Both the position numbers and the translations under genes were made by a program. Positions 1 to 64,000 of a stretch of DNA of 64,000 bases are shown here, in pieces. The first letter of the stretch is position 1. Every line of letters begins with the position of its first letter. A model generated the notes under the pieces. The model had not been told where the DNA came from. It saw nothing but the letters and a program-made list of their open reading frames with translations, and did no database searches. The DNA lies in NCBI GenBank assembly GCA_022829145.1, contig CM040742.1, positions 44,037,682-44,101,681 of the forward strand. The letters are read 5' to 3'. The DNA is from Albula goreensis. Taxonomy: Eukaryota > Chordata > Actinopteri > Albuliformes > Albulidae.

Positions 1-1276
1 TTCAGAGCAATTTTGCGGCAACCTCTGAATTTATAGGGACCCTTTAACGCGGAGGGATGTGCGACTCGCAGCTGCTGAGCACTGTCAGATCGTCTGACTC
101 ACTCTGACAGACTTTAAGCCCAAACGCGTGATTAATTTCAAAATCCCCACCAAGTGCATGTGGGGATGAGTCTCAAAAGCAGCAGAAATCCCGCCGGTAT
201 TGTCACAAGAACAGACTACCATACCTTTCCACAACCCCCCTTCTTCCTTCCCCTTTCCCCCTCTCCTGTTTTACACTCATAAGGCATGACTTCCTACAGA
301 GATGTTTGAGGGTGTCAAACACACCAGCCATCTCAATGACAAACCCTTCAGCCTCAGCTCCACATCACTTCAGTCCTCAGCCTTTTCCCGAGCACAGTGC
401 TGTGGGACTGTTTTTTCCTTTGTGAGCTTGTGAATCTTTGTAAAAAGCAGGGAGTACATTGGCCTCTGAATCATCACGCTCTTGAGACCAACCCGCCCAG
501 CGGAGCCAACAACGATAGACCTCAACACCGTCTGCTCGTCTGTTCAAGCTCCTCCTCAACACTCTTTCTCTCCCAGAACCGCTATGTGTTCAGCCCCTGC
601 TCCTCGAGGTTAACTCTGCACTTCAGCTGTATTAAAGAGGTCACGATGTTATTATCGTTCAAAGACGCTGCTCGCGGCTGGGTTCGAGCGAGTCTTGTTT
701 TTCTGCATCACAGAGGAAAATCAGGGGGCGTAGAAGTGGTCAGCGAAATTACGCTGACGGAAACTTTTGACAAGTTAGACACACAAATCAGGCGCCGGTG
801 AGAGGGACTTCATGACAATAACAGATGAACTGATAGTGGAAACTGACACCCCATAACTTGTCAGTGCAAGTGATCACCTTTTTGTTTTTGTTTTGTTTAT
901 TTTACAAAGGCGGCTTCACAGACAAAGAAACAATGGCAACATACAACCATACTCATTTGTCTGAACCATCATTCCAAACATGAGGATGCTTCTCTTTGTG
1001 TCCCCTTACATAACATTGACACAAAAGAACATCCTTTTGTGTCAGCCACCAAGAGCCAAGAAGAATGTTTGTCCCAAATATGTCTGATTTCCTGCTACTG
1101 TAGACAGGTCAGCCACTCCCACAATCACATGAGCAACATGATTGGTTGATGGTCAGCTGATTCACATGAGCAGGAAAAGTACTCTACTGTATGGCCAGAT
1201 GTCCAGTAAATTAGCCATGTTTCAGCTGCTCTAAAAATCCTTACAAAATACAATAAATAATAATAAGATGCTCTAA

Positions 1277-1311
1277 AGAAAAAAAAAAAAAAAGAGAGAG
1301 AGAGAGAGAGG
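1277..1311. repeat. poly-A plus (AG)n microsatellite
   Basis: A run of about 17 A is followed by about nine AG dinucleotides. Confidence 0.95.
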
Positions 1312-1598
1312 TAAATTCTATCCAGCTGCAAAGCTCATTATAAATTCCTTTCTTGGTCACTTGATTCATTATTAAAGAGTCCACAGGCAAAATGTTTTTA
1401 ATTCCAGAAACAATTCCATTTGATTAAAACACAAAAAGCACGTCCGCATTAAAGCAAATGTCTTATTTTTGTAAAGATTATATCAGTAAAGTGGTTGACA
1501 CTGGAATGTAGTACAATGCCTGCATTGGTCGTAATGTAATTTAATATTGAGCAAATCCCCCAAGTTTCCAAAAACAAGGCTAATCTCCACATATCCGA

Positions 1599-1632
1599 AC
1601 ACACACACACTCACACAAACACACACACACAA
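1599..1632. repeat. imperfect (CA)n microsatellite
   Basis: Two CA runs are separated by short interruptions (CTCACACAAA). Confidence 0.9.
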
Positions 1633-2315
1633 AGTCATCCCATATCTGTTTTTCTTAGAAACACCCCAAAACATACCCATTCAAATTCATTGTCAGTACA
1701 TCAGTATTAAAATACATTTGCAGCAGTGACATTAAGGGCTCAAGAACAACTTCCTCAATACTAAAATAAATTCCAAAAGTTGCTACAGGACTCAATGAGC
1801 TGTTATATATGAATTAACTGAATAACATCTTTGCAATAACCATGGAAGCATGACTACTGACATAAATTTTGCCTTTCAAAGATGTGCTCTTCTGAACGGG
1901 TGTTGGTGATGGGGAGCATAGAAAACAAAATGGCACTAATATTTTAAGAGGAAATGTGGCTCCACAAAATGGAGTGCATGTCCACCTCATTTATTCGAAC
2001 CCAAGCCTTTTCACTTAAAGAGCGAGGAGATGCAATCCAAGGCCAATGCACAGTACAAATTAAAACACCACCCAAATTTAACATTCACTTTGGGGTTTGC
2101 ACACGTTAACACAGTGATTATTGTACACCAGCCAAAGGGCCTGCCCATTGTTATTCAGGGGGTGCGTTCTCTATTTTTCCCCATGTGATGCAGATGAGCT
2201 TTTATGTCACCTGTCCTGGAAAATGATGTGCTGCTTCCTAAAAATAATTGCTATTACAGTGAATGGGGATGCTCGTGGATGGAGTAGTGGAGTTGGTGGG
2301 GCGGAGGCCTCCTAC

Positions 2316-2911
2316 CTTAAGCCGTTGGCACTGGTGGCGTAGGACTGCGAGGCTCCGGGAGAGGGTCCCGCCGATGTAGCTGGGGTCCAGGGCCCCCCCC
2401 AGGCCATGCCTCCCACAGACAGCGGCCTGCGGGGGTAGGGCGAGTACACGGAGTTGAGGTTCCCGCCCGTGGCCGGCCTCCCCATGCCCTGCAGGCTCGG
2501 CCTGTTCATCTGGGCGGCGGAGAAAGAGTGCCGCGAGCGACTGGACACGGGGCCCGCCGAGCCGCTTCCCAGGCACTGGTGGCAGGAGCAGGAGGGCCCC
2601 GAGTGGATCACCGAACCGGACCCGGACTGGGCCAAGGGGTATGGCTGATTGGCCTGCCGTCGCACCTGCCGCTTGAAGCCCGAGGTCTTGTTGACCTGGT
2701 AGAGCGCCGTCAGGTCCACAATGTAGTTGTAGCCGTGTGGCACCAGGTCTGCCGTGGCCTGCCGGGCCTGGTAGCTGTGCTCCAGCATGATGGAGGTGCG
2801 TGTCTCGTACGGTGTCCAGCTGCCCTCGTCATTGGCCCACTCCCAATACACGCCACTGCCCAAAGCGGAAGACTGGGGAAACAGACTTCCGGCGCACGGA
2901 CCGCATCTTCC
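2316..2911 (-). CDS. dtx2: dtx2 coding exon 2 (WWE domain 2 and Ser/Pro-rich linker)
   Basis: The acceptor is CACAG before GGAAGATGCGG; the donor is GTAGGA after TTAAG. The exon is 596 nt. Entry in phase 1 and exit in phase 2 would need 595, so it carries one extra base. The exon reads GKMRSVRR in one frame and LFPQSSALGSGVYWEW in the next. The two pieces are continuous in human DTX2 as I remember it. The rest (WWE2, the CSCHQC motif, the Pro-rich tail) is open to the donor. Confidence 0.85.
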
Positions 2912-4182
2912 CTGTGTGTGGGGGGAGAGGGCCCTGTCAGTTCTTGTCAGTGTGAATTTTTAATGCTTGTTGCTGTGTTTTTTTCTGTACTTATTATAAG
3001 TTAAACCAAATGAACAACACACATCAATCAACATATCAGCAAATCAATCTGTACAGTACCGGATTAAGCTAGGAGCTCATTTACATCTTGCCCATTTGTA
3101 TGGGATCGCAAAATCTTTGCTGCTTCTTGGCCAGTTTCCCTTTGGAAAATATATCTCTGTGGGACTACTTTGTAAGTAGTTTGTTCTCAGTTACAATGAA
3201 ACTTACAACTCACACAGCTGTCTACATCTAGATCTAGACATCTAGAGTAATTCTTTTAACAAAAAAAAAAACCTTCACAATCCTTTCCGTTCACAATCCT
3301 TTCTGTATCATTGATTATTAAGTGAAACAATACTTCTTGTGAGAAACAAATGGGTAATTGTCCACTGAGGTCAATCAAGGCAAAAATATTATTGTGCGTA
3401 TGTTTTGGTGACTATAAAGGCAATTAAACAAGGAATCAGGATTATACACAGTAGTGTAAACTTCAGGCAAATTCTGTTGAGGTCAAGAATAATAATGGGT
3501 GTAATGCTGAATTTCCGGTTGTTTTCCCACTTTTTTATATTTCACTCTGGTGTTGTTTTCAGACAGCTACCCAGAAAACATGTTGTTGCCAAAATTTTCC
3601 ACCGCAAAAAGAATGATCAAAATCATCAATTTGACAAACGTATTACTGAACAAGCGAAAACAATAAATACAATGAAAAACTTAGCTAGTCATGGATGACG
3701 TTGGTCGATTACAAATTATGCTTTCTAGAATCGAAACCGAAGACCTGACGTCACAGATAAACCAAAGTACAGTAATTGCAACATCGATGATAGTCTACAA
3801 AGCAATACCATTAGCAGTCTGGTTGTTATGGGAAGTGATCGGATTGCCAATTACCATTAGCGACCTTACCAGTGTCTTGGCGGAACTGTTTGAGGCTTGG
3901 GATGTCAATGATATAGGGGGCCAAGCCAGGGTCTGACTGTCCCAAAGAGATGCTTGTGGTGGCGGGTCCAGCACTCCTCAGTCCTCGCTGTTGCAAAAGG
4001 CATTGTTCGATGTAGCCGCTAACCTTGCCGCTGTACGGTCGCCAGTATCCAGCATCGTCTTGCCATTCCCAGACAACCACCATAGGCTGTAACTGTCCCG
4101 GTGTACCGGAGGGCGTTGTGGTAGGTGGAGGTCCGGCCCAAGAACCGCTAACCCCCGGCACAGAACCAGATGCTGCAGCCAT
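2316..4182 (-). CDS. dtx2: dtx2, Deltex-family E3 ubiquitin ligase, N-terminal part (2 exons)
   Basis: Two coding exons, 4182-3870 and 2911-2316, encode the two tandem WWE domains typical of Deltex proteins. In the family these domains bind the Notch ankyrin region and ADP-ribose-type ligands; the RING and DTC catalytic part would lie left of the window. The first exon opens with an Ala/Ser/Pro-rich leader, then VVVWEWQDD, then APYIIDIPS and QFRQDTG before a GTAAGG donor. The second holds VYWEWANDEGSWTPYE, GYNYIVDLTALYQVNKTSGF, VRRQANQPYP and a CSCHQCL motif followed by a Ser/Pro-rich stretch. The NKTS and CHQCL motifs fit DTX2 better than DTX1 or DTX4 as I remember them. The start ATG at 4182 follows a plausible acceptor, so a 5' non-coding exon is likely. 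The second exon has one base too many for a continuous frame near 2885-2888. Confidence 0.9.
2912..3869 (-). other. dtx2: dtx2 intron 1
   Basis: The donor is GTAAGG at 3869-3864 and the acceptor is CACAG at 2916-2912. It is mostly AT-rich with an A-run near 3260-3270. I saw no other feature. Confidence 0.75.
3870..4182 (-). CDS. dtx2: dtx2 coding exon 1 (WWE domain 1)
   Basis: This exon has 104 codons plus one base and ends in ACTG with donor GTAAGG. The start ATG is in MAAASGSVPG. WWE domain 1 covers about residues 33-104, with W-E-W near its start and YIIDIPS / FRQDTG near its end. The next exon supplies the G-K-M-R-S-V-R-R continuation expected of Deltex proteins. Confidence 0.88.
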
Positions 4183-4194
4183 TCCGGCTAGCTA

Positions 4195-4900
4195 GCGTGC
4201 TCACAAACCTGCAAGCTCCAGACGTTGGTCTAACTGGCTAGCTAGCTAGCAAGAGCTACCTAGGTAGCCAGTTAGTTTTGCCACCTAGATAAGCGCTAGT
4301 TACACCACAGAGATAGCTAGCTAGTGAAGTATCTCCTGTGAAAGCTAGCTAGCTATAATGTGTACATATCATGGATAGTTAGCAAACGTCAGTTACTGCC
4401 TGCCAATACGTATGCGGGCGAGCCAGACACATAACGTCGACATTAATTATGGGAATCTGAAACTAAATCTAAAACAGTTAGCCAACTAGCCAGCTAATCT
4501 GGTTAACTGGCAAGCTAGGACTATGTGTAGCAATCTAGCTACCTCGCTCGATCCCGTGCAACTTCGACTGCCTTTGAAAAAACATCAATGTAAAATCTAG
4601 ACAAATTCCTTGCCACATTGACCAGTTACGATTAATTATCAGACAAGTTAATGCTACAAAATTTCCCCGCAAAGTAATGAGGAATGTGACAAACTAGTGA
4701 AAGTTAAATAGCTAGATACTAATCCAGATTCCATTTTAAAATGAATATGAAACCATAGAAAAAGCTAGGTAGATACCAAGCAAGCTAGCTACATTAGCTA
4801 CACTAATTCCACATGACAGCTAGCTAGTCAGCTAATATAGGCTTCTCGATTAGCTTGGCGGCTAATTAACTGAAATTTCAACTCCATTTAAATGTATAAA
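4195..4900. repeat. scattered GCTA/AGCT tetranucleotide clusters upstream of dtx2
   Basis: GCTAGCTAGC-type motifs recur at about 4188-4260, 4314-4350, 4480-4520, 4765-4800 and 4818-4865, with unique sequence between them. They lie in the putative first intron or 5' leader of dtx2. This is a low-complexity enrichment rather than one clean array. Confidence 0.7.
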
Positions 4901-4938
4901 AAGGAAAATGGCCTAATTGCTAGCCTGCTACCTACTCA

Positions 4939-5010
4939 CGACCGATCAAAACACAGCAATCTCTTTAAAGCTTCGGTATCTGGGGACCTTCCGTCTTGGG
5001 TAAACATTGC
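4939..5010 (-). promoter_or_regulatory. dtx2: possible dtx2 5' non-coding exon and promoter area
   Basis: On the minus strand a strong donor, GTGAGTAGG, begins at 4938. It is preceded by sequence without a clear ORF, and an acceptor-like TTGCAG lies just upstream of the dtx2 ATG. This suggests a leader exon ending at 4939, with transcription starting a little to the right. No TATA box was identified. Confidence 0.3.
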
Positions 5011-8000
5011 AATGGGTAAACTGTGTGCACTTCAGAAGTGCACACGGAAATACTCGTCAATAAAATGACGTTTCGGTTAGACTTGTAGGGATTGTAGTTT
5101 TTTGTACTGCACCCATATTTTACGTCACCCCTGCTGTACAGCTGGGAAATGCAGTACGGTATTGCCATACGATGACAGGCATACTGCTGAGTGCAGAATA
5201 TGCGAAGCTCAGTGAACATGTTACTCGACTTTTCCGAAGCCTGATATTACTCGACTAAAATACGCTTTACATCTAAAACCCATTTGTTCCCCTTATACAT
5301 ATTTGTATTATATCTTTAAAATCTCATGAAACATGGGACAGCTCCCATCGATACTCTCCAGCTTAGCCTGCATCAAATAGAGAAAGAATTTCAGATGATC
5401 TGTTGGTGATGCAAACAAGTTGGTGTCATCCTCGTTTGTCACATAACCCTACTGCATTTGTTACTGTTCTCGATACAATTGCCTGCTAAATGCCTAAATG
5501 CAATGTAGTGTAATGTAGGCTAATGTATTGCCTGTAATGGCCTGCTATTCCTCCCCTCCCCACATTGTTTCTGGAATGTAACAGATCGGGTCAGTGCAAA
5601 CAAGATGGTGCTGAATGAAGGTTAAACAGCATGCTATCCAGTACAAGGTCCACACAAGTTGGCAGCTCAACAAATAGTCTGGAAATGTATTTTTTTTTTT
5701 TAGGTTATCATTCAAAAATATTTGGTTATAATGCAAAAAATGGCACAAAGCTAAGTGATACAATCTACTGAAAATGGGAATGTTTAAAAAATGTAGCCTT
5801 TTCATGACAAACATTTAGTTGTCCCAGTCAGAAAAGCCTTAGGTGGCTCTTTTCCATCATCCTGGAAATATTTGTTCAGCGATTCACAGAGAGGAACAAG
5901 ATGACTGTGAGGTGAATTAGTAATGTGCAAAATACTGAGGCTTAGTTTATTCATGTAAACACTGAATGCCATATTTATATCAAGAATTTAATATATTATA
6001 CCGACATTACGAACACTTGGTACAGATTTACATTCACAGAAGTAACATGAGACACTACACCATGCAGATGTAATTTACATAAAATATATACTTAGACATT
6101 TTCATCCACACAAGATTTGTAACTTGTAACAACTGTTTGTAAATATGTTATGAAAGAAAATGGTTATTACCGACACTCAGCCTTTTAGTTTGTCAATATT
6201 CAGTTAACATGAAGCAGCAGGTCTCTACAGTGTTTCACATGTTTAAACAACAACAGTGTATTGGGTAATATGGAGAGCTTTTCATGTAAGCAAATGTAAT
6301 CAGTTCAGGATAGGAGCATCTGCCAAACATCTTAAATAATGTGTAAAGAGTAGCTTAAAGTACATAATTTGTTCAAAATAACAAGGTAAGAATTTCACTG
6401 AATCCTTTAACTTCTATGAGTTAGTACTGTGCCTTCAGGCCTAATGAGAATTTAAGCATATTCTTTTATAGCACAGTCCAGCCTCACTTACTTTCTGATT
6501 TTATCTCAAGACATAGCCACAAAATTCCTCTGCAATGTCTCTGTTACTTTGTGTACAGAACAGCTATGTCACATCTATAATTGCTCTACATCTAAATAAT
6601 AAAGCAAATGTCGGGGCATGGGGGAAATTGTTTCAGGATGAAGTCATGAAAATTGAATTTAGGGAACAATTGCTCATACTTTCACTGATGTCATTTTTTG
6701 GACTCGGATCATTGTGCAAAAACATATTTAAATTATGGGATGTGATGTTTATAACAATAATCATCAAGATGAGTCAAATGGACCTTGAAATAAATGACAA
6801 GCGTCTGAAGCCGTTATGGCCTGTTCATCAATCACTCCTTTAAAAGGCCTACTAAACTTACCCTGACATTTATCAGTTATATATCACATCATATCCATTG
6901 ACAATGGCATTGCACAATAATCTCAATCCAAAAATGGACATCCCAGAAAAAACAATGGTATTTAGGCCATAAAAATCAGAATTCCTCCTGAATAATTTCG
7001 CACATGCTGGGGTGTACATTTTTGCATACATTAAAGATGTGATGAGACTATACTGTTCTTGTGGTTGCCTTGCCAACAAGGAGGGTGTAACATTTCCAAA
7101 TAGTTCCAAACAGAGATTCTACAGAACCACTCTCTTTGTGAGTATACTTTCGATTGAAAATCAGGATGCAAGTTTGATTGGGGTGGGTGTTTAAGGCGTG
7201 AGGACCTTACACAAGGTATAAACCCCATGGGAGGAATTTTATTTCCTATCATCAGTCAAGATACATTATTCCTCAGCAATCACAGGACACTTCATATGCA
7301 TATAGTGTATTGAATTCAATCTAATATTTCAGCACTCTATATTTACAAAGTGTTTGACCAGAAGAAGAGGAAAGCCCTACTGTGTGACGTAAGAAATGTT
7401 CTTGTCTGTGGCAAACCAAAGGAAAATCTGAATTGGCAATAGCAAAGGCCTACCCACTGCAGATTGTGAAAAGGCTCAAGCAAGCATCCCCGTGATCACT
7501 GACTGAATGCAATGTAGTATGCCCTTCCCAAAAATGAAACTCAAAGAGTGAATAATTGGGCTTCTTGTCTAAATTGATTCTATAAACCCACTAGGCTATA
7601 AAAACTCTGCACAGATGGAGAACAGTCACAATAGACCTATTTGTAAAAGAAGGCTATTTAACAGTTGAGTGCAGAGTGAGCGTGTTGTTCTGGAATCTGA
7701 AGATACTGTACAGAGGTGAAAACATTGTTCCATTCCCACGTACACCGTGTACATATTCTCCCAGGCACTGTTTAGCATTGGTTTTTGAACGACAATGTAG
7801 ATACCTGCACAAAAGAGGACAAGCAATATGTTTAGTCAAGCTTTTACACTGGTTTTTAAATGAGTGAATGTAGCAATTTCTATAGTCTGGTGTATCCTTG
7901 ACAAAATGACACCTTGCTTTGCCGTGGCAGAACAAAATATGTTAAGTGAAAATCATCAATTGGGATTTCTTTACCCAGCTGACAGCTTTTCCAAAAATTA

Positions 8001-8040
8001 AGTCATTCCAAAAAAATCTGCTCAACATACACTAGATAGT
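5011..8040. other. intergenic region between dtx2 and the TFII-I/Crypton gene
   Basis: No exon was recognised on either strand. It contains a SINE-tail-like fragment near 5460-5530. A minus-strand polyadenylation signal (AATAAA, plus-strand TTTATT) at 7238-7243 could serve the gene ending at 8411, but that would require a 3' UTR of about 1.2 kb. Confidence 0.6.
5460..5530. repeat. SINE 3'-tail-like fragment
   Basis: The sequence TGCCTGCTAAATGCCTAAAT followed by repeated TGTAATGTA-type words matches the tail seen in many fish tRNA-derived SINEs. Related tails occur near 34670-34745 and 40350. Confidence 0.55.
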
Positions 8041-8049
8041 CTTGCGCAA

Positions 8050-8342
8050 CAGGGCCGAAACTAACATCTATTTTCATTATCGCTGAATCTGCTGATTATC
8101 TTCTCGATTAATCGTGTGGTGTATAAAACATCGGAAAGCAGTGGAAAATGCCCACAAGGTGACATCATTAAATGTCTATAATGTAAGACCCAAAAAAACA
8201 GCAAATTCCCACATTTAAGAACATAGACCCATCAATTTTTTTGGCAATTTTGCTTCAGAAATGACAAACGATTAATCAATGATCAAAAAAGGCCATTCAC
8301 TTTCTTTCGATCGACTAATCAATTAATCGACTGAACCGGCTG
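8050..8342. mobile_element. non-autonomous hAT-like element (MITE)
   Basis: It begins CAGGGCCGAAACTAACATCT and ends in the opposite orientation with AATTAATCGACTGAACCGGC. It is rich in ATTAATCGAT-type words, as in the common fish hAT MITEs that start CAGGGCTGCAACTAACGA. The termini are partly complementary and no clear 8-bp target duplication remains, so it is an old copy. It lies 69 nt beyond the stop codon of the fusion gene and may be part of its 3' UTR. Confidence 0.65.
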
Positions 8343-8410
8343 ATATTCCAATTCAGGTGGAAACAACAACCAATACAGAGTCACTGCAGCAGTTGAAAGA
8401 GGCAAATATT

Positions 8411-8538
8411 TCACAGTACCTTTGTACTAGGGGTCTGCAGAATTCCCTGTAACAGGGGAATTGGGGTCATTCTTATGCTGTGGTTGGAGTAGACAAAGGA
8501 AAGCTGGGCTTCCTTAGAGAGGCGAGGCATCATGCTAC
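8411..8538 (-). CDS. fusion gene exon 12, end of YR domain and stop
   Basis: It encodes SMMPRLSKEAQLSFVYSNHS, then IRMTPIPLLQ, and ends PSTKVL with TGA at 8413-8411. NHSIR is the expected HxxR catalytic box. The segment that should follow, with a G-H box and the nucleophilic tyrosine, is absent, so the domain looks catalytically dead. A donor-like AAGGTACTG at the end leaves open a further unseen exon. Confidence 0.8.
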
Positions 8539-11500
8539 CTGAGAGAAAACACAAACACACTTCCACATTAACCTGAACAGAAGTCGGTCCTGTATGCTGC
8601 ATACTTTCAACAGGTGGCTACAGTCCAGGCGTGAATCCTGACTGTACTGGAGCAGACTGTGACATACAATTAGGCATAGTGTCAGCAAAACTGGACAAAC
8701 CATCAGCCAAATGAGTTATATTTCAGCCATGTGCTCTCTCCCACACTGACAGAGCACCCACTGTACATATTTAAATGGACTGATGTTTGAATAAACATAT
8801 AGACAGACTGACCGAAACAGACAGACAGACTTGTCACTTACATGTGAGTACAGCCATACCTAAAACATTGACTCCCACTGGCTTGGTGTTGTACCATATG
8901 TCTGTGGAGGGGTGGAGTATGGGGTGCTGGAACAGGGCGCTGCTGAAGGGGTTGAGTTTGGAGAGGTAGAGCTGGAAGGCAGACACGGGACAGCATGGAT
9001 CTCCTGGCAGAGCATACATCCTCATCCTCTGACACGCTCGACGCATCAATTCGCTCCGCTCGTCCTTTGCCGCATACACAAACTCTCTGCCTGGATGGAC
9101 AGACAGAGAACACAGAAACAGAGACACACTGAGTCCTGCTGCAATAGATATCTCTTTGTAATGGTCTCCTTGACAGAGGTGTCTGCATAAACAAACACAA
9201 CATAAAATTCAATAAAGCAAAGTAAAATCCAAAACAACAGCTGTAAAACAGAGAAAGTCATTATGAACACAATCTAGAATAGCACTAATGCATATCAACA
9301 GCAGCTTCCAAGGGAAACAATAATGAGATTTTTAAAAAAGCACATTTAAAAAAAAGCACATTTAAGACATGAATAAATAAAATATATGAAAGAATAATGG
9401 TAACGGGGAGTTGACTGAAGACTGTATGAGACTTTGAAGTCCTGAAGTTGACAGGTGGTTCAATCCCAGCACGGCAGAGCTCATGAAAATGGAAGAACGA
9501 GATGCAACTACCTTGCTCGTCGATCCCGAAGCTGAAAGACTCCCGGGTGAACTCCCGTTGGGTGTACCGGCCCCCACCTCCATCCCGCGCCAGGAAGAAC
9601 ATAATGTCAAACCACACTTTGTTGAGCAGCGTCTGGGGGGAGGTGGTCCTCAACGCGGCGCTCTGGTAGAGCTTGAGTAGGTCATCTGGGGCCAGGGGGA
9701 CCATGTGCCGGGTCAAGGCCTTGCCCTCCAGCTTCAGGGCCCCGCATACCTGGCGGTAGGTGCGATTGGAGGCCGGGAACTGGGACTCACAGAGGATGTT
9801 GATGTGCCGGCGCAGGGGCGGTCCACGCAAGTAGCGGTTGATGCTCTTGCGGATGGCGTTGAGCGAGTTCTTGGTGTAGGGGTCCTTCTTGCTGGTCTTG
9901 GCGTTGAGGTAGAACTCCCGGAGGATGTCGTCCAGCTCCGGAGGGGACATCAGGTCGATCGCGCGGCCGGTCGCTGGAAGCGAGCCTGGTACCACTTGCG
10001 GAGGACAGTCATGCCCCACTTGGTGCTACACAGGGTGTTCCGGCTGCCCTGGCCGGGGTGGAGGCCTGAGTCAGGGGGCTCATGGCTGGGGGTAAGGCCC
10101 AGGTCTATCCCGGTCCTTGGCCAGCAGGCAGCTGAGGCTGTAGAAACAGGGGAAGGAGGTAATCTCCACTCTGTAGAATGCTAGTAGAATGCTCACTCTC
10201 TGACAGTCTGTCAAGAAAACATGCATTAGTGTTTTTTTTTTTTCGGTACAGGTTGCCTGCAAGCTCTCTTGGACCCTCAGATTTCTGAGGGTGTATTTGG
10301 TTGGCCCTGAAGTTTTCCCATGCCTGCATTTATTAGATAAGACTGCCCAAAGACATTTCCAGCTCTGAATAGCTGTTTACATTTCACAGTCCAGCCTACA
10401 TGTGATGAGTTGAACTAGCAAGTGTTCTGGCTATATGCATGTCACTACAGTGTGTTTTGACACAAAGTTATATAATACATACATCTGAGATCCAGATTTT
10501 AACATACCTTTGGCTACATTTTAAGAAGTGGTGGATCATAGAAAATGTTACCCCTGGTTTAGGGGGTTTTACAGTTTGGGTACCCCTCATGGACGATCGC
10601 ACTCACCTTCGATAGTCACCTCCACCTCAGGGTCTTCCCTCATCTCTGAAATAACTGATGGGGTTGAGCCTTGTGAAACATTAAACAGACATTAAACATT
10701 CTGAGCAATGAACTGAACTGAACAAACCCATACATGCTGGGTCACGTGCATGTACTCTATTCATCAACCATATCTTTACAATCAAATCAGATTGTCTGAG
10801 ATACTGAAATAAAATCCTATAACACTCATTTCCTGAGTTCTTTTGTAGAATGTCTATTATATCCAAGCGTGCTTTATTCCTCTGATGTTTAAAAAAAAAA
10901 TGGGTCCAATGACTCATTGTGTTATATCCAAATTCGCTTTAAATCGGGGCACGTAAAATCGGGTTTTCACTGTATATACACTACACTGTACTACATATTA
11001 TAAATTCAAGAGGAAAGAAAAAGTACACAGGTAACACAAAAAAAACAAAAACACCAACGTAAAGTTACTTATTAGGGTGTTGAAACTGTTTTGTCTTTTT
11101 ATTCTTTTTATTTTCTCCTTAAACTCAAGCAAATTGAGAAACACTTTCCTGCCCATACAGGAGGAGGAAGCAGTGAACATGTGACTCCTCCGATACACAA
11201 CTACACCTCACTTCTTTCCACACTGCAGATGCACCAGCGATTACACACTGCATAAGTCAACGGGATAAAGAGTCTATATATGCTAGGATATTATGTACTT
11301 AATGTAAGTAAAGTGTAATGTAGTAAAGTGTACTTTGTGTAAATTTGTTTTTTTGCAATGTCCTTCTTTACCAAGACGTTTCCTTTTTGTCACTACCAGT
11401 ACACACACATAGACAAAGAATGATTATTATTATTTTTGAGTATATTATCACATATACTCTAAAAAAGGACTGAATGAAAACCTTCACTATGATCTGAGGT

Positions 11501-14348
11501 GGAGCTAACCTAATCATTAACTCCATTCATAGAAGGCAGCATTCTGCAGGGATTAGCAGTCTGTGGCATTAGCCTAGAGGTGTCAGCATTTTCATTCACC
11601 CTTCATCAAACCGCAGACACAAAAGAGGGGGTCGAGAGAAGATCCTTACCCACTATTGCAAGTAATCTGTCCGCCTCTTCTCTCGTTTCCCCGATGCAAC
11701 GGCTGCCTGTGGAAAAGACACAAGCTCCAATGCACCGTCTAATACCATCAGGCTGGAAGATGGGACTGATTTTTAAAAAATGATTTACCTGTCAGGGGAT
11801 ACTGAGGGTCAACGTGCTCTTCCTTCACAGAGTCAGCCACCGTTTCTGGTTCCTCTGTCGAAACAGGCAAAATGTACTTGTCATTTCATCACTGTACATT
11901 GCCCTGACAGCTGTTCCATTAAACTAAAGAGAGAATTTCACAAGCTGCAAGAGTGACCTGGCTACAGCAGTGGTTTTTATTCACATTTATGTTACATCAG
12001 ACATACCCTGGATTTCATGTGGCTCTGCTTTCACACGCACTGCTACAAAGCTGGAAGAGAAAGAATTAATCGGCATTGATGGTCTCCGCATGACCATTTT
12101 TTAAAATGCATAAAAGCCTGCAATGCCAAACACTAAATATTGCATGTGTATAACCTGAAAGAGAATGCAATACAAATTCATCAGGTGGTGCAAAGAACTT
12201 AGTTACAGTATTCAGTCTGTGAATAAGTAGGATTGTGCCATGCAGAGAAGATTATATGAATAATGGATTTTTTTCAATAGAAGGCTTTTATATGAGCAGT
12301 ATTGAAAACATTGTAGCTCTTAGAAGTTTCAGAATCTTCTGAAATCTTCTTCAGAAGTTCTTTCAGAATCATTATTCCTTATATTGATGTCTGTGTAGTA
12401 CAGAACACACCAGGTCCCCTTGTAAAAACACATTTGTAAAGAACTTGCCGAACCAGTCTTCCTAATTTTGATTTACACATGCCTTTTCTTTTCCACATAA
12501 TATTCTACTAAGTGACAATAGTTTAATATATTAAAAAGTTTAAAACTACAAACATAAAAACATTCTTCAAAGGAAGAGAAATTTTGGCACCTTTTCACTT
12601 GTTAAATTCAACTGGCTATCTTTGACCCATTTACACCAACCTTATATTTACTCAAATGACATTTTAATTTTTTCAAAGACCGAGGATATAAATTGACTGT
12701 TCAGTTTGAGACCTTTGCAAATGATAAATGTTGTCCTACCTTGGCAGCCACGACTGTTCACAGCATTTTTCATATTTGTTTTTTCGGTGGGTATGAATTA
12801 TATTTACCGATCTGGTGAACTGTTTTCACACTTGACTGCCTGACTGATATCCTTTCCTGCAATTCAAATAGAAAACAAATCCTTGTTCAGAAGTGCAAAT
12901 ATTCTGGCTCAGTGTGACTATGTAAACACGCCATTCGGACACTATTTTTCTGAAGCAATTCTTTGCCTTGAAAAATCTTGAGGTACAGCTAGAATTACCC
13001 CCAACACAAGCCTCCATTTCTGAATTATGGATATATAAGACACAACTGAGATGCAGTCAAATTTGATTAAACTGGAAAAGATTCCCCCACCTTTCAGCTT
13101 TCTTTGTACCAAAACCGGCCTGAAAATGAAGTTGGAGGGCAATTAGACAGTCGTTAGAGCCAGTGAAATTCAATTAAATACATCTCATACAGGCAGGCAT
13201 ACGGAAAGTGGCACCACCTTCTCAAAACAAAGCTAATGTGGGACTTCTTTTCTAGAATTTTCTTCAGTGTTGATACGTCATAGTTTTCAGGCTCCTGCAA
13301 AACGATTCCATCAGGAAGACCTTTCACTTCCACATTCGAGGGGTCCTCCTGAATCTTGCTGTAAGGCACAGGCAACAAACTGGACTCCCCAAAAGCTTTT
13401 CCTAAACCGAATGAAACATTGACCGTTACCACCCTACATTCTCATTACCGAGTGAATTTTAGACATACAACAGGCCAGTGCGTTTGATTAGACTGGCATT
13501 ATTATTAATTGGGGGAACAAACAGTGATGTATTATTGCCATTATGCTAAACATTTATACTTTATTGTCCATTTGCCATACATGACAGTACATTGTCATAT
13601 ACCAAGTCTAATTAATGTGTTGTCAGTCCTTTGCTTGCATATTCAAAATGAACAGCTTCGCCTGAGTGTCCTCCATTTTACTGCACCCTACTGTACTAGA
13701 CATCTTACTGTTACCATATGCTCATTTTCTAAGTTCATACACGGCTAGTGTTCCACTCCAAGAATCGCATATGCAAATGAACTGATTGTCAGTTACTACT
13801 TCTTATGAATCATGATTCTCAGGGGGTGTGTGAGAGACATGAACATCTTTGCCCAACCAAATCGGCTGTCAGAAATCTGTTGGCTCTAATCTGAATGCAT
13901 AAAGCCCAGGCCAATACACTTACTGAAGCTATCCAAACGCTCTGTCAGACACTGAGTGTCTGGAGAAAGAGAGTCCGGCTCCAGTTACCGTAACATGAAG
14001 AGAAGACATCCTCCACTGCCTTTTTCAGTTTTTCCCTGTTCAGCTTGTCTGAAGCGTGCGGGAAAGGAAGGTGTTTTATCCTCACTTGCTCTCTGTCTCT
14101 CTCCTCCTCAGAAAGACCTACAAGTCAAGGGGAGACATATGTCTACAGATTTCAAGGAAGAGGAAGAAGACAGCCCTTCACTTAATTCACCTCGGTAAAC
14201 GTAGTTCATTCTGGTATGACTGTCAGAAGTGGTACAAATAAATATGACTCTATTCAATAATTACATGCTGTATTTAATTTACTCCATGATTACCCATATT
14301 GTTGAATTCAACTTCCTTCAACACTTTTTACATACAGTTCATTGCTGT

Positions 14349-14380
<32 letters not shown>

Positions 14381-15153
14381 AAAAGAAAGAAAGAAAGAAA
14401 GAAAGAAAGACAGGACATCTAGAATGTTTCTGCTGACACTGAATTTGAACAGGCTTAGATTTGCTGAGCTTTTGCAAACAAAGACTTACAGTATGTGACA
14501 AAGTCTCTCTGGAAGTCCGACCTGATGTTGGCGTATCCTTTCCCCCTCTCCGTGCCCACCACAAACACCTCCTTGTTGAACACAGCCAGGCAGGCCACCT
14601 CTACGCTTGACTTGGCCAGCTCCTTGCACTGAAAAGTCATCACCCACTCGGTTAACGCACATTTAGGAACATCCACACTCTTTACGATTTCAGCAGGTCC
14701 ACTTTTTAAACATCAAATTAAGAAAAATGGAAATAAAAGCACCAAAATGGTCTCGATCTGATTCCATATTATTCCTATATAACGAAACAAATGGTCATTA
14801 ATTGTACTTCTTTTTACATTAGAATTTCTCGAGCACTGTATGAAATAAGTTGGTTTCAATTAGGTTCTTCAGCAGAGGAGCGTGAGGTACTGAACTGCAA
14901 ACTGCAGGAATGAGCTACAGCAATATTTTATGGCAAGTGAACACTGGCCAACATTTGGTTTTTAAACCTCCAAAATTACAGCATCACATAAAATGTCTCA
15001 AACAGCGTATCAATCACCTTAATTTTTCATTATTAAAAGTACTGACGAATTTACCATAGAGTCGAGCGCTGACATTAGGAATGTCACCACAAGGTGACTG
15101 TCTGATGACCGTAGCTCCCCAGAGGGTTGTGGCAAGACCCCAGTCTGTGCCAT
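8411..15153 (-). CDS. TFII-I-like protein fused to a Crypton-derived tyrosine recombinase (DUF3504-like) domain
   Basis: Twelve coding exons: 15153-15055, 14628-14490, 14048-13989, 13401-13218, 13119-13091, 12042-12007, 11854-11789, 11706-11650, 10645-10607, 10137-9512, 9090-8860, 8538-8411. All junctions agree in phase, except a one-base deficit inside 10137-9512. The product is about 564 residues. Residues 1-99 match the TFII-I N-terminal leucine-zipper region (VVTFLMSALDSM, CKELAKSSVEVACLAV, FVVGTERGKGYANIRSDFQ). Residues 100-160 are I-repeat 1 (PVPYSKIQEDPSNVEVKGLP). Linker exons then give VRVKAEP, VKEEHVDPQYP and DPEVEVTIE, as in TFII-I. From about residue 260 it becomes a Crypton-type YR domain: TKWGMTVLRKWYQ, ELDDILREFYLNAK, LYLSKLNP, DIWYNTKPVGVN, YSNHSIR. 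TFII-I proteins are nuclear DNA-binding transcription regulators. No further I-repeats follow. Two separate genes are possible, but no stop, promoter or poly(A) signal was seen between the parts. Confidence 0.8.
8860..9090 (-). CDS. fusion gene exon 11, Crypton YR middle region
   Basis: It is 231 nt, phase 1 to phase 1. It encodes REFVYAAKDERSELMRRACQ, MYALPGDPCCPVSAFQLYLS, KLNPFSSALFQHP and DIWYNTKPVGVNVL. YxLPGDxxCPVxxxxxYLSKLNP is a strong signature of animal Crypton-type recombinase domains. Confidence 0.9.
9512..10137 (-). CDS. fusion gene exon 10, Crypton YR N-terminal and core region
   Basis: It has acceptor TTTCTACAG and donor GTAGTT. It encodes LCSTKWGMTVLRKWYQARFQ, then ELDDILREFYLNAKTSKKDP, SLNAIRKSINRYLRGPP, LKLEGKALTRHMVPLAPDDL, KVWFDIMFFLARDGGGG and FTRESFSFGIDEQ. 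The pattern matches animal Crypton-like YR proteins and DUF3504 of KIAA1958-type genes. The R-rich stretch after FLARD probably corresponds to the first catalytic arginine box. The exon is 626 nt, whereas matching phases require 627; the frame changes near 9955-9972. Confidence 0.85.
10607..10645 (-). CDS. fusion gene exon 9, bridge exon between TFII-I part and recombinase part
   Basis: It encodes EMREDPEVEVTIE with phase-1 ends, acceptor TTATTTCAG and donor GTGAGT. It resembles the human TFII-I inter-repeat motif VPEIEVTVEG, so the last TFII-I-type exon is only about 470 bases from the recombinase exon and joins it in phase. Confidence 0.7.
11650..13119 (-). CDS. fusion gene exons 5-8, acidic/KxEP linker
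   Basis: Four short exons: 13119-13091 (PVLVQRKLK), 12042-12007 (VRVKAEPHEIQ), 11854-11789 (EPETVADSVKEEHVDPQYPL) and 11706-11650 (SRCIGETREEADRLLAIV). The VKxEP and VKEExxDPxY motifs parallel the TFII-I linker after repeat 1, which carries SUMO-type VKxE sites. All have phase-1 outer joins. For 12042-12007 the acceptor TTTGTAG was preferred over TTCCAG eight bases upstream because only it keeps the frame. Confidence 0.78.
13218..13401 (-). CDS. fusion gene exon 4, I-repeat 1
   Basis: This 184-nt exon (phase 1 to phase 2) is the size of the other I-repeat exons in the window. It encodes KAFGESSLLPVPYSKIQEDP, VKGLPDGIVLQEPENYD and LKKILEKKSHISFVLR. The P-E-N-Y-D motif and KSHISFVLRR match repeat 1 of human TFII-I ([20 protein letters not shown]) rather than later repeats. 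Confidence 0.92.
13989..14048 (-). CDS. fusion gene exon 3, helix before I-repeat 1
   Basis: It encodes KLNREKLKKAVEDVFSSCY and ends in a phase-1 G before GTAACT. It corresponds to the human TFII-I stretch ETLRKTVEDYFCFCYG. The acceptor is GCTTCAG. A preceding alternative exon (the human VEEEEKAAEM segment) was not found. Confidence 0.75.
14350..14410. repeat. (GAAA)n microsatellite
   Basis: About 15 GAAA units with one longer A run, in intron 2 of the fusion gene about 80 bases after the exon 2 donor. Confidence 0.97.
14490..14628 (-). CDS. fusion gene exon 2, TFII-I leucine-zipper/dimerisation region
   Basis: It starts TGC (CKELAKSS) after TTTTCAG and ends with TAC T before GTAAGT. It reads EVACLAVFNKEVFVVGTERG and SDFQRDFVTY, closely matching human TFII-I residues around [20 protein letters not shown]. 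Confidence 0.9.
15055..15153 (-). CDS. fusion gene exon 1, TFII-I N-terminus with start codon
   Basis: It is 33 codons, starting MAQTGVLPQPSGELRSSD and ending VVTFLMSALDSM before donor GTAAAT. Human TFII-I begins MAQVAMST and has VVTFLMSALESM at the same exon end, which fixes both start and frame. The upstream sequence runs back to an acceptor near 15181, so at least one leader exon lies further right. Confidence 0.9.
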
Positions 15154-18309: not shown

Positions 18310-41659
<23,350 letters not shown>

Positions 41660-54018: not shown

Positions 54019-55913
54019 TCAGTGTTTTTCCTGGGAAATAAATATTAAGTATTTACTGGAAAACACTGCATGTTTATTCTTTGTGTTCACATTAATTACC
54101 AGTCTTTGGAAATCATACACACGCAACAGTTTGGTTTATGGTGTTCTTGCGGTCATATTAAATGCTTAAATGCAAAAGGTTTGACGTTTGAAATAGCATA
54201 ATAGTACAGTGTCTACTCTTTTCTTTCAATCTGACATTCTAGAACACATTTGAGCCATCAGACTCATTGTTAACCAAGAAGCACTAGTAAGAGACTACAT
54301 TTCTAAAAGTAAAATCAATCCTTGGTCATTCACAATAAAGGCACATTAAGATGACTCACCTCTTGTGTGAAAGGCTTATCCTGTTGATGGATCCCATTGG
54401 CTGAATTGGCACCCCCGTGTGCCTACGATGATTGTAAAGGAGAGGAAAGATACCCTTTAAATCAGTACTCTCACCATAAAATCCCCACTTTCATTATACA
54501 AATTTATAACGAACAAGGGATCACTCTGCAGAATTTAAAATTGATATGCAATGGAAAGGCATAAACATAACATCTTTAAGTTTCTTGACGGTGCATTACT
54601 AAAAGAGAAGGCACTCACATCTAGAGACTTTCCATAAGTGCATTCATAGGGAATGTGATGCACATACTCTTTCTCATTCATGAGCTTTCCCTGCTGGTAG
54701 ACTTCTCTAAGCCAGGGGTTAGCCCACCCAGGTCCTGGAGAGCTACAGGGTGTTCTGGGTTTTGTTGTTACTCAGTTCTTAATTGATCTACTAGCACAAC
54801 TGCTCACATGGTTGACTCACCGCCCCTGGTTTATTGGACCTGGATATGTTGTTGATTTTAAGGTGTAAATTAAAACCAGCTCACTCCATAGCTCTTCAGG
54901 ACTAGGGCTGACTGAGCATGCCCCGTATCAAGGCCTTTTCTGCACGCCTTAACTCTTACAGTCCTGATGGGCTAGATCCGATAACAGAAAAGCTTTTCCG
55001 CAGTCCCAGTGAATGACTGCAGACAGAGAGCAGAGCTCCCTGGTGTGTCTTAACCTAAGTCTTATTCATATCAGACTAATGTCTGTGAGCCTAACTAGCG
55101 TCACCCCACTGTGGGATAACTCTGACCGACATCCAGAGATACGCTACCACAGCTGTTTACCACAATGAATCACAATCTTCTATGACCTTGAAATGACCTT
55201 TGCTGCACTATATTGTAAATATTCAAATTTTGGAAAATGTAAGGACACATTTTCACAGCTATTTGATAACATACATTTCACGGCTAGCTTTCTTTTAAAT
55301 ATGTATTGCTATACATGAAAATGGCAACCTTTTCAGAAAAACCGATAATTTACCAAGTTACAATACGAACTGGAGAAGACTGATCTGAGATTCTGCACAC
55401 AGTTGCCTTTTACAAGTTTACAACTGACACGGTAAGGATATGAATGGGGGAATCTGATCCTAGTTCAGCAGTCCAACACTCCTTCTCTGAGACCCTTTTT
55501 GAATATCGGCCCTGATCTAGGATCAGTTTTAGCTGTTCATAACTGTCTCGGTTCAGATGTGGACCAGAGAGCCACGGTCCTAAACCAACACTCCTACTCT
55601 GTGAGGCTTATTTAATATCTGCTCTGATCTAGGATCAGTTTTAGTTATAAGCTCATGAATGCCAAGGTTAAGATGAGCACGAGGGAGACCTGACCCCAGG
55701 TCAGTGGTTCCCATACGGGGTTACCTGAACCTTGTCAGGGTAGGTGCGCATGGCCTGCACCAGCTGGTCCACGTGCTGGTTGTGCTCCAGGGCATTCCTC
55801 AGGGCATCCTCCGTGCTTAGGAGCCTCTGCTTCAGCCTCGCCACCTCCGACTCCGTGCCCGACGCGTCCAGCATGGAGTACCTGCGGTGGTCTGGAGACG
55901 ACCGCTCCCGGCC
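54019..55913 (-). CDS. clip2: clip2 last three exons and stop
   Basis: Exon 55913-55725 encodes RRYSMLDASGTESEVARLKQ, RLLSTEDALRNALEHNQHVD and AMRTYPDKVQ. Exon 54422-54360 encodes AHGGANSANGIHQQDKPFTQ and E. The 12-nt last coding exon 54030-54019 encodes EKH and TGA. All joins are phase 0. Confidence 0.92.
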
Positions 55914-58900
55914 CTGAAAAAAAAGGGGGGTTGGTGGGTGAGGCCTCTCGCTGAGCTGAGACGCTGCATTTGATGTGGGCCAGATAAATGCCACCTCAGA
56001 ACCCTCCTTTACTCTCACACTGACAGGAAACACACCCCCTCCTATTAGATCTGCAAAAGTGTTCCATGTATACAGCTTTTTAAAATGCTGAAAAACGCAA
56101 TTATTTCCATTCCGTTGCAACCCTTGATCACACAACAAGACTGCTGCCAATTTAACTTGGAAAGCAGGGCAGAATCACAACCGCCTGGGCATCACAGCTC
56201 GCTGTACAGCTATACCCACTGTGCCCCGGGGGTCTGGATCCCTGAGGTTGTTTTTGCTCTCACTGAATGTCTCTTTAAACACAAACATTCTACTCATAAA
56301 CTGAGTGCTACATCTTATTGGTTCACAGATAAAAAACCCAGAAGAGGGGGCGAGATGTTCAGAACTATGCAGATACACCCCTAACTAAACACAGGTCAGT
56401 GATATGTACTCAGATTCAAGGGAGAATGGGATGACTATAGTGCACCTACACTCAGCTGTCAATCACTGACTTGTCTGAACCAATCAGAGATGCTTCTCAC
56501 AAGCACAATTATTGGCACAAATCAGTGAGCCACTAACAGACTAACCATTTTGGGTTAAATGAAACTCCTCCTCTCATCACTGCTAAAGCCACAAGAGATG
56601 TTTACAGCCCTCTACCACTGAGCAGAAATACAGTGCTCCATATGAGTCTGGTGCATTAGTAAAGCTCAAATCTGATAGGCTGGACACAGCTTTTTTTAAC
56701 ATTGCTATTGACTGTTTTCTGCAGTTAGTCAGATACAGGCAAGTGTGCCTGGTGCCCCTTTTAAGAATGGCAAAGAACATGTTACTGTCAAAAACACACA
56801 CAGAAACACACACACACACACACACACTCTGAGAAGAAATAACATGGTTGCTGTGTTAGATCTGGTGCGTTAGTTGCCACAGTAACTATCATAAACACCT
56901 AATTCCTGTGAAGAAACCCTTATCTGAAACTCCTTTTAAGAATGGCAACAAACTTGTTTTCTTCCAAAGCAGAAACACACACAAGGCTTGGATGAGAAAT
57001 AACAACAAGCAAACTAACATAACACATGAAATTTAGTGTGTTAGTTGCTATGGTAACTAAAATAAACATTTTATTTGTGAGCCGTGTTGTAATTTCAGTG
57101 TGAATTTTCAGGGTGATTGCAGTTGAGACTGGTCCCTGCTGTCATAAACTGAAAGGAAAACCTAAACCCTATCAGACGCTAACATCACATAGTCTTCTCA
57201 GTGGGGAAAAGTGTAACGGGGTCAGCCCAGTCACAAACTGCCTGGTTTTAAGACTGATTGCAACCCCTACACTTGTGCACCCACTTTACCAACCAATTGG
57301 GTGGGTATTCCTTCATTAGCATTCTGCATAAACACTGCATCAACAGGAGATGCTCAAGGCAGGAGCCGTACGGCGCTATACCTGCCAGGCTTGTTTGTCA
57401 GGTAGGGCAGCGTCTGTTTATGAGAACGCAAAAAACACATAAATACCAGCCCAAAATACTCATGATTTATTACTCACTCTGGTACAGAAGACTGCATTAT
57501 GGATGGATGGTGATGACTGAAGAATCACATGTTGATATGATGTGTTTAGGCTTACAGGCTCTACCTGGTATCAGTAGCTGTGCAGGTGGCCTGTTTGTAT
57601 GCTGCTGTTGCCAGCGCCGTCCTTGGATGTCTACTATTGCAGTCAGTGTGAATTTCCCCATTGGGGGATTAATACGGCATATCTGCATTATTCTAATCCC
57701 TTCGGGCAATAGTGATAACACAATACAAAAGAGGCTCAACTGAGCGAGAGAGAGAGAGAGAGAGAGAGAGTGCATGTCGCCCGCCCGTCGCTCGCCCTCA
57801 CCAGCAGCAGCAGCTTCTCACGCAGGGTCTTGATGTCGTCCTGCAGTTTCTGCTCCTTCTGCCTCCATTCGGCCTTGTGCACCTCGCGGCTCAGGTCCCG
57901 GTCCAGCCCAGGGGAGTGACGGGGAGAGTCCAGGAGGAGGACCCTCAGCTCATTCAGGCTCCTGCCACACACACACATAAGATACACACACACACACACA
58001 CACACACATAAGATACACACACACACACACACACACACACATAAGATACACACACACACACACATTAGACACACACACGCACGCATGCACGCACACACAC
58101 ATAAGATACATACACACACACATAAGACACACACACACACACATGAACACACACATAAGACACACACGCACACACACACATAAGACACACACGCACACAC
58201 ACACACACACACACACATAAGATACACACACACGCACGCAAGCACGCACACATATAAGACACACACACACACGCATAAGACACACACACGCACACATGAC
58301 ACACACACAAAAACACACGCACGCATGCACACACGCACGCACATACACACACACAAACACACACACACATCCCTGTGAGTCACCATGCTTTCCTTATTAC
58401 ATCACTCATAGAACAGACTATTCACACTAAAAAACAAGTATGCCTTTCCCTTTTTCTAACTCAAAAGCAACAAATAATTATTATATTTATATACAGAACA
58501 AAGATGTAGGAGATTAAACCCATTTGGACCAAGTTATGTCCTGTAAAGTCTTCAACAAGTCAAAATGTGATCTACTGTTTGCTCTTGCCAACTGTTAAAG
58601 GGCTAAAATACATATTGTGCTAAGTGTTAGTCCTTTTCTTCACTACTTTTGTGTCTTAGAAATGGTGCTACCCATTTTCACAGCTGGTTGTAGGCAACAC
58701 TTCCATTAAAGGTCACTGTTTAAAAAAAAATGTGAATGGAAACATAATTGCAACCAGCAATAGAGTTGGTGCAAGATGGGAAAAAAACTGGGCGGTCTAG
58801 AATGTTCCTAAGTAAATCGACTGGAATGGGTTTTGGCTGTAATGCTTGCTACTTACAGCAAAATTAGTTCTGCTGAGGTTTTTGATTTCTCCAGAGCTGA

Positions 58901-63323: not shown

Positions 63324-64000
63324 CTGCGGAGCCCAAGAACCACACCATCATTCCAAAACAAACAAAAAAAAACCAAGGGCAAACGCTAACATGCGTGCTT
63401 CACGAGCACACCTTTCTGAAATGCTTATTTCACAGGGTACAGGCCCAGAGGATCTGAGTGCTTTTTGTCTCCAATTTCAAAAGACGGTCATTGGGAATAA
63501 ATCCAGGGAATCAAATTCTGAGCTGAGCCTGTAGACCGATAAGCATTTAAGAGGATATCCTTTGTTCAAAGGAATCTCCGGCTTGGAAGAATTCAAAACA
63601 ATATGTGCTTCTCAACCAGCTGATAGCGGTGCAACCTAAAGGTAAAACAAGAAAAGTTCAAATCAAGAAAATGCAATAAATGGAAGCCAAGCAAGCCGTT
63701 CCGAGTAAAGCTTTGTTCTAGTAAAGCAGCCAGCAAGACATGACATGGCAGAACCCATTTCCTGGCCCCCGAAGCAAATGCAAAGGTTTGTGGGAAATGG
63801 AACCGGTTAGAGAGTATGAGGTTATCTAGCAATGGCATTCCAGCATATTCCACATAGGGAGAATCTACGAGATCTACTTTGGAGATAAGAGATATTCAGT
63901 CCGAAATGTTAGTTTTCAGAGACTCTGTTGCTATCACCACATGCTGGGATTTTGCAGTGAGGTTCAAAGCACTGTTAGTGTTATCAAACCATAGAAAGAA
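63324..64000 (-). other. clip2: clip2 intron at the right edge
   Basis: No CAP-Gly or coiled-coil coding sequence was recognised in these 677 bases. Confidence 0.6.

Follow-up and report, generated by a model that had tools for sequence, protein, structure and literature searches.

In the bonefish Albula goreensis, the place expected for GTF2I is occupied by a gene in which the front of TFII-I runs into a Crypton-type tyrosine-recombinase domain. Predicted proteins point to the same arrangement in several further ray-finned fish of early-branching lineages. The gene lies in a stretch of 64,000 nucleotides of contig CM040742.1 (assembly GCA_022829145.1, positions 44,037,682 to 44,101,681; hereafter the window), on the minus strand at window positions 15153–7772, and comprises 14 coding exons over a span of 7.4 kb. 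Exons 1–10 encode the TFII-I front (N-terminal region, I-repeat R1, a VKAE/VKEE linker, and an exon reading EDPEVEVTIE), and exons 11–13 encode the recombinase domain. We favor, at a probability of roughly 0.6, an explanation in which the gene is an old domestication that kept the TFII-I front, gave up the DNA-binding half in favor of a Crypton recombinase that is catalytically dead, and acts as a transcription regulator.

The front of the protein is of recognizable TFII-I type. Exon 1 (15055–15153) carries the start codon and N-terminal TFII-I region (VVTFLMSALDSM), which aligns with five other N-terminal sequences, and exon 2 (14490–14628) encodes an N-terminal zipper-type region (CKELAKSSVEVAC); we take the N-terminal region of the fusion protein as the leucine zipper of PMC8155576. 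R1 begins, after linker sequence, in exon 3 (13989–14117), has its bulk in exon 4 (13218–13401), and ends in exon 5 (13091–13119), where the linker resumes. Exon 4 matches Pfam GTF2I (E 1e-29, and over the cut-off in a search of the whole genome), and its best match among solved chains is the TFII-I repeat 2d9b (E 4.3e-26); the N-terminal region and the I-repeat also align with two full-length TFII-I proteins, P0009 and P0010. The linker continues through exons 6 (12808–12856), 7 (12007–12050, VKAE motif), 8 (11789–11854, VKEE motif), and 9 (11650–11706, poorly conserved in our alignment) to the bridge exon 10 (10607–10669), whose EDPEVEVTIE marks it as a TFII-I exon, the same residues being present in P0009 and P0010. 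PMC8155576 describes TFII-I as combining a zipper with six repeats that bind proteins, a nuclear signal, and a basic region that binds DNA. The fused proteins retain the zipper region and R1; the basic region and R2–R6 seen in full-length P0009 are absent from them, leaving a single repeat where full-length TFII-I has R1–R6.

The same absence is found at the level of the genome. A search of the whole assembly (932 Mb, 208 contigs), whose counts are possibly lower bounds, gave six I-repeat matches from ten scored candidates, all over the cut-off; five lie in the upstream gene, gtf2ird1, and one in the fusion gene, with no I-repeats elsewhere, so that R2–R6 are not detectable in this genome. Searches by tblastn with full-length TFII-I (P0009 and P0010) likewise returned no remnants of R2–R6 in window positions 1–8400 (E up to 0.01) or across the following 30 kb (E up to 1). 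The upstream gene is on the same strand and both of the repeats tested (2/2) have GTF2IRD1 chains as their best match. The fusion gene sits directly behind gtf2ird1 in the expected GTF2I place, and is the only TFII-I family member other than gtf2ird1 that the genome search finds.

Exon 11 (9512–10137) is the first recombinase exon, exon 12 (8860–9090) contains the motifs YLSKLNP and WYNTKPVGVN, and exon 13 (8420–8538) holds a recombinase remnant with NHSIR that ends ahead of the catalytic-tyrosine segment. Exon 14 (7772–7804) then supplies the C-terminus VSTLSFKNQC and the stop codon; this ending is present in the deposited A. goreensis protein (P0004), similar tails occur in three other fused proteins, and the Amia model ends otherwise. 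We assign the domain to the Crypton type because the recombinase region of Amia matches a Crypton-like protein, P0126 (E 7.1e-51), which itself matches Phage_integrase (E 7.1e-10). With catalytic residues placed according to the R-H-R-Y description in PMC3212892 and the known features of the fold, all five of the proteins that reach the C-terminus stop, in the alignment, before the catalytic-tyrosine segment. The first-arginine box is altered in the fused recombinases, and H-x-x-R is retained in four of the five. The domain thus departs from an active tyrosine recombinase at two of these elements and resembles instead a domesticated Crypton, having lost the tyrosine yet kept 76–93% identity between Megalops and Amia in three recombinase regions.

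A tree of 11 rows (P0125 left out, and a single locus, L006, used from the 20 DUF3504 matches in the genome) places the fused sequences in one group with support of 99/99; it does not resolve the deeper order, and long branches keep it from settling the nearest Crypton or DUF3504 gene. Among solved structures, the profile of our alignment A2 found no match up to E 1, and the recombinase piece alone matched only QRICH1 (E 0.17) and an unrelated chain (0.8). A comparison of intron places with three ZMYM/QRICH1-like exons from the same genome gave no reliable alignment of the recombinase domain. The database proteins P0124 and P0125 are of the BTB type and carry a DUF3504 domain at the N-terminus; the P0124 recombinase is 37–41% identical to the fused ones, slightly above P0126 in four of six. 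L006 (G000:C1:46264057-46267506) is an intronless open frame of 348 residues with a DUF3504 match at E 6.6e-15, which we presume to be KIAA1958-like.

That the two halves belong to one chimeric gene is supported by the structure of the gene itself and by its relatives. Every exon from 2 to 13 is flanked by an AG acceptor and a GT donor, and exon 14 is preceded by an AG acceptor; splice phases are consistent from exon 1 into exon 11. The relatives come from three protein searches, which reach proteins of similar length sharing short exact words with the query. With the conceptual protein as query, 893 matches were obtained among 7,998 scored candidates, and the top five of the best 120 of these 893 are fused (Albula goreensis, Megalops cyprinoides, P0006, Synaphobranchus kaupii, and Amia ocellicauda). 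The recombinase region of Amia gave eight matches among 1,940 (the same five fused proteins, two BTB proteins that are, in our reading, of the KCTD1 long-form type, and one Crypton-like protein), and the recombinase piece gave three proteins with E ≤0.001 among 592 candidates, one of them a fused, partial protein of Polyodon spathula. Six distinct database proteins (those of Albula, Megalops, Synaphobranchus, the bowfin Amia, and the paddlefish Polyodon, together with P0006) therefore join the recombinase to TFII-I sequence, which is more than chance would give.

The join itself is uniform: in five of the six, EVEVTIE runs straight into A[SP]xxxW, with GIDL further on, and the Megalops model, which is without exon 10, restarts at the same residue after the join. 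In Polyodon, 38 of the 40 residues ahead of the join are identical to the full-length TFII-I of Acipenser ruthenus, which identifies the partner of the recombinase as TFII-I proper. Within the first 41 residues of the frame coming into exon 11, some of them conserved in all six proteins, there is no methionine, so that the recombinase exons alone do not give the conserved protein; a separate start for the recombinase was considered and thought unlikely on this ground. P0006 has 617 uninterrupted residues encoded on a contig of 3,259 bases, to be set against the 7.4 kb over which the Albula gene is spread, and is therefore probably a spliced transcript, the sole and indirect evidence of expression in this analysis; we take its source label, lgn, to denote assemblies of public reads. 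Public databases carry the fused proteins under automatic names, the Albula entry being a “DUF3504 domain-containing protein”. As a separate observation, P0006 has about ten additional residues (REVYQSVVHG) ahead of EDPEVEVTIE when compared with window exons 9–10 (11706–10607); together with the Megalops model lacking exon 10, this makes alternative splicing just upstream of the join possible.

These results bear on an earlier note, made from the letters of the window, which had described a TFII-I gene continuing into a Crypton recombinase. Its exon positions on the minus strand, the agreement of phases through the bridge exon, the single I-repeat, the linker exons with VKxE/VKEE motifs, and the Crypton-type motifs are all borne out, as is its claim of one chimeric gene. 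The end it gave to the gene at 8411 has to be revised, since exon 13 stops at 8420 and is joined to exon 14, which had been missed. The TFII-I DNA-binding/dimerization module that it proposed survives as the zipper region and R1 and fails for the missing basic region and R2–R6; the recombinase fold is indeed of Crypton type, but is truncated before the catalytic tyrosine.

How such a gene might have arisen and what it might do can be framed as follows. The gene of a Crypton recombinase would have come to sit, in an early ray-finned fish, downstream of the TFII-I exon whose last residues are EVEVTIE, and would have been spliced onto TFII-I as a new 3′ end, and the basic region and R2–R6 would have been lost in this lineage. 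The product would be a catalytically dead chimera, the front of which (zipper region, R1, and two V-K-x-E motifs) most likely dimerizes and recruits partners, possibly Gtf2ird1, while the recombinase domain most likely takes over DNA recognition from the lost DNA-binding half; the whole chimera would act as a transcription regulator. Identity between Megalops and Amia, taken by region with borders placed by hand, is 60% (48/80) in the N-terminal region, 61% (50/81) in R1, 26% and 45% in the two linkers, and, for the recombinase, 84% (92/109), 76% (65/85), and 93% (81/87) in three regions. Constraint on the protein is strongest in the part that stems from the transposon, although the catalytic segment of that part is lost, and the last long region of the recombinase is the most conserved of all (93%, versus 61% for R1).

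For domesticated Crypton domains, passages of PMC3212892 suggest DNA or protein binding and leave the choice between them undecided, which makes protein binding a serious rival: the chimera would be real and conserved, but the recombinase remnant would serve as a protein-binding or dimerizing module that no longer reads DNA. The disappearance of the catalytic segment fits such a role, and so does the 93% identity of the most strictly kept region, which is what remains of the catalytic half. Against such a role, strong conservation (84%) is also seen in the N-terminal recombinase region, and the gene has lost the very part that holds the TFII-I basic DNA-binding region (P0009 compared with the fused proteins; PMC8155576, in the portion describing that region). 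We regard a purely protein-binding remnant as possible, if rather unlikely.

Several observations weigh against domestication as a DNA-reading regulator. The segment leading into the recombinase is only 66% identical between Megalops and Amia, and the C-terminal tail only 40% (4/10). Pfam DUF3504 scored 25 bits in the window against a cut-off of 29.7; it reached 23.2–28.5 bits, again under the cut-off, in five of the six relatives and did not match the partial sixth, although precomputed database labels assign PF12012 to P0007 and P0008. A whole-genome DUF3504 search returned 20 matches, 18 of them over the cut-off, with the fusion gene not among them. The known distribution of the fused gene is patchy. 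Among the matches listed there is no fused protein from gars, bichirs, bony-tongues, or other teleosts, and among the best 120 of 893 no full-length TFII-I of Amia or of any elopomorph, neither of which proves absence. No Albula transcript was seen, and we infer expression in Albula, as we do dimerization, regulation, the order of events and, purely so, DNA binding by the recombinase domain. Finally, the frame of exon 11 is broken in this assembly.

This last point has two sides. Read on from the TFII-I exons, the frame reaches a stop at 9952–9950 within exon 11, a break that the earlier note had missed, and the remaining recombinase lies in another frame; the five other fused proteins read through the site uninterrupted. 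P0004 is identical to the window translation over the first 324 and the last 284 of its 607 residues, which jointly cover it, and its model bypasses the break by a 44-base skip with GT/AG ends (10029–9986) that explains the step between frames. An intron of 44 bases would be very short for a vertebrate. P0004 may derive from the same assembly as the window and would then not be independent; agreement with it does not tell whether the break is genuine. Were the break real in Albula, this copy would yield only a shortened TFII-I front of ~348 residues, the fusion remaining intact in other fish. The break in the window and the skip by which the deposited model dodges the same site speak for this, but the two may not be independent, the stretch at the break is GC-rich (~60%), the frame past it is open across the remainder of exon 11 and exons 12–14, and in the tree the branch leading to the Albula recombinase, at 0.18, does not exceed the 0.19 of Synaphobranchus. 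A genuine lesion in Albula thus seems doubtful to us, and would in any case be compatible with our preferred explanation for the other fish.

A reading as two genes, in which a truncated TFII-I gene is followed by an independent Crypton-derived gene and gene prediction has merged them, would be allowed by the want of an Albula transcript and by the fact that the annotated relatives are predictions, among which a common method might produce the same erroneous join each time. We consider this highly improbable given consistent phases across a join that recurs in six proteins of several sources, a P0006 contig too short to contain the introns of the fusion gene, and the 41 methionine-free residues at the head of the entering frame of exon 11.

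Among known systems, the chimera shares with GTF2I/TFII-I the zipper region, R1, the VKxE/VKEE linker, the EDPEVEVTIE exon, and the place directly behind gtf2ird1 on the same strand, and differs in having a recombinase domain instead of the basic region and R2–R6. A parallel is mammalian GTF2IRD2, described in PMC10641963 as a TFII-I family front with a C-terminal hAT transposase (Charlie8): both carry a transposon protein at the C-terminus, but there the element is hAT and the hosts are mammals, whereas here it is a Crypton tyrosine recombinase in ray-finned fish, at the GTF2I place. An identity with GTF2IRD2 was rejected, since Pfam searches of pieces of the window (to E 10) and of all six fused proteins (to E 0.01) showed no hAT family. 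Crypton-derived DUF3504 genes, for which passages of PMC3212892 list KCTD1, KIAA1958, ZMYM2/3/4, QRICH1, and WOC, likewise hold a domesticated Crypton recombinase inside regulator genes with the tyrosine lost. They differ in that the partner protein is new here and the DUF3504 model stays under its cut-off, in that the second arginine is lost in the listed genes whereas the fusion proteins keep H-x-x-R in four of five, and in that the KIAA1958 domain is intronless and that of KCTD1 is described in its passage as single-exon, whereas the domain of the fusion is split over exons (PMC3212892, passages on these genes). Bird ATF7IP, from the same source, also has a Crypton recombinase within a transcription-regulator gene, but as a predicted alternative product without known transcripts, unlike the join seen here in six proteins from distantly related fish.

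We found no description of a TFII-I/Crypton fusion in the open-licence literature, and one elsewhere is possible; the text of PMC3212892 and PMC5753468 contains no word beginning with GTF2, and passages of PMC3072357, PMC5638112, and PMC10641963 deal with other subjects. The fusion would add a Crypton recombinase domestication missing from the gene list of PMC3212892, in a host that is a Williams–Beuren region transcription factor, at its own locus, without a detectable full-length copy beside it in this genome. Taken with mammalian GTF2IRD2 (hAT), it would mean that a single small gene family has captured proteins of two unrelated transposons. As full-length TFII-I is present in sturgeon and the fused form in paddlefish, tarpon, eels, and bowfin, the steps through which a transcription factor exchanges its DNA-binding half would be open to direct comparison and test. 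More speculatively, and at odds we would put well below even, the TFII-I orthologue of an early ray-finned fish swapped its DNA-binding half for a transposon recombinase and the chimera has been the sole TFII-I of bonefish, tarpon, eels, and bowfin for >300 million years, the recombinase still reading a site related to that of the old transposon and founding a new regulatory network, an independent parallel to mammalian GTF2IRD2. If true, transposon proteins would have been trapped more than once by the TFII-I family.

Scans of the window with Rfam and for tRNAs gave no matches. Downstream of the fusion gene, two WWE domains are encoded on the minus strand at 2315–4191 (E 1.6e-13 and 1.5e-20); deltex proteins have WWE domains, and this gene is presumably deltex. 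The upstream gene with five I-repeat exons spans 19700–41600 on the minus strand, its last exon apparently ending near 18310, and one of its introns contains a tandem array (31945–32341) with periods of 48, 68, and 118 bases. Open reading frame exons of a long coiled-coil protein, which we take to be CLIP2-like, occupy 55700–63400 on the minus strand; on that assumption, the CLIP2-like gene, gtf2ird1, and the fusion gene would match the order known in human 7q11.23.

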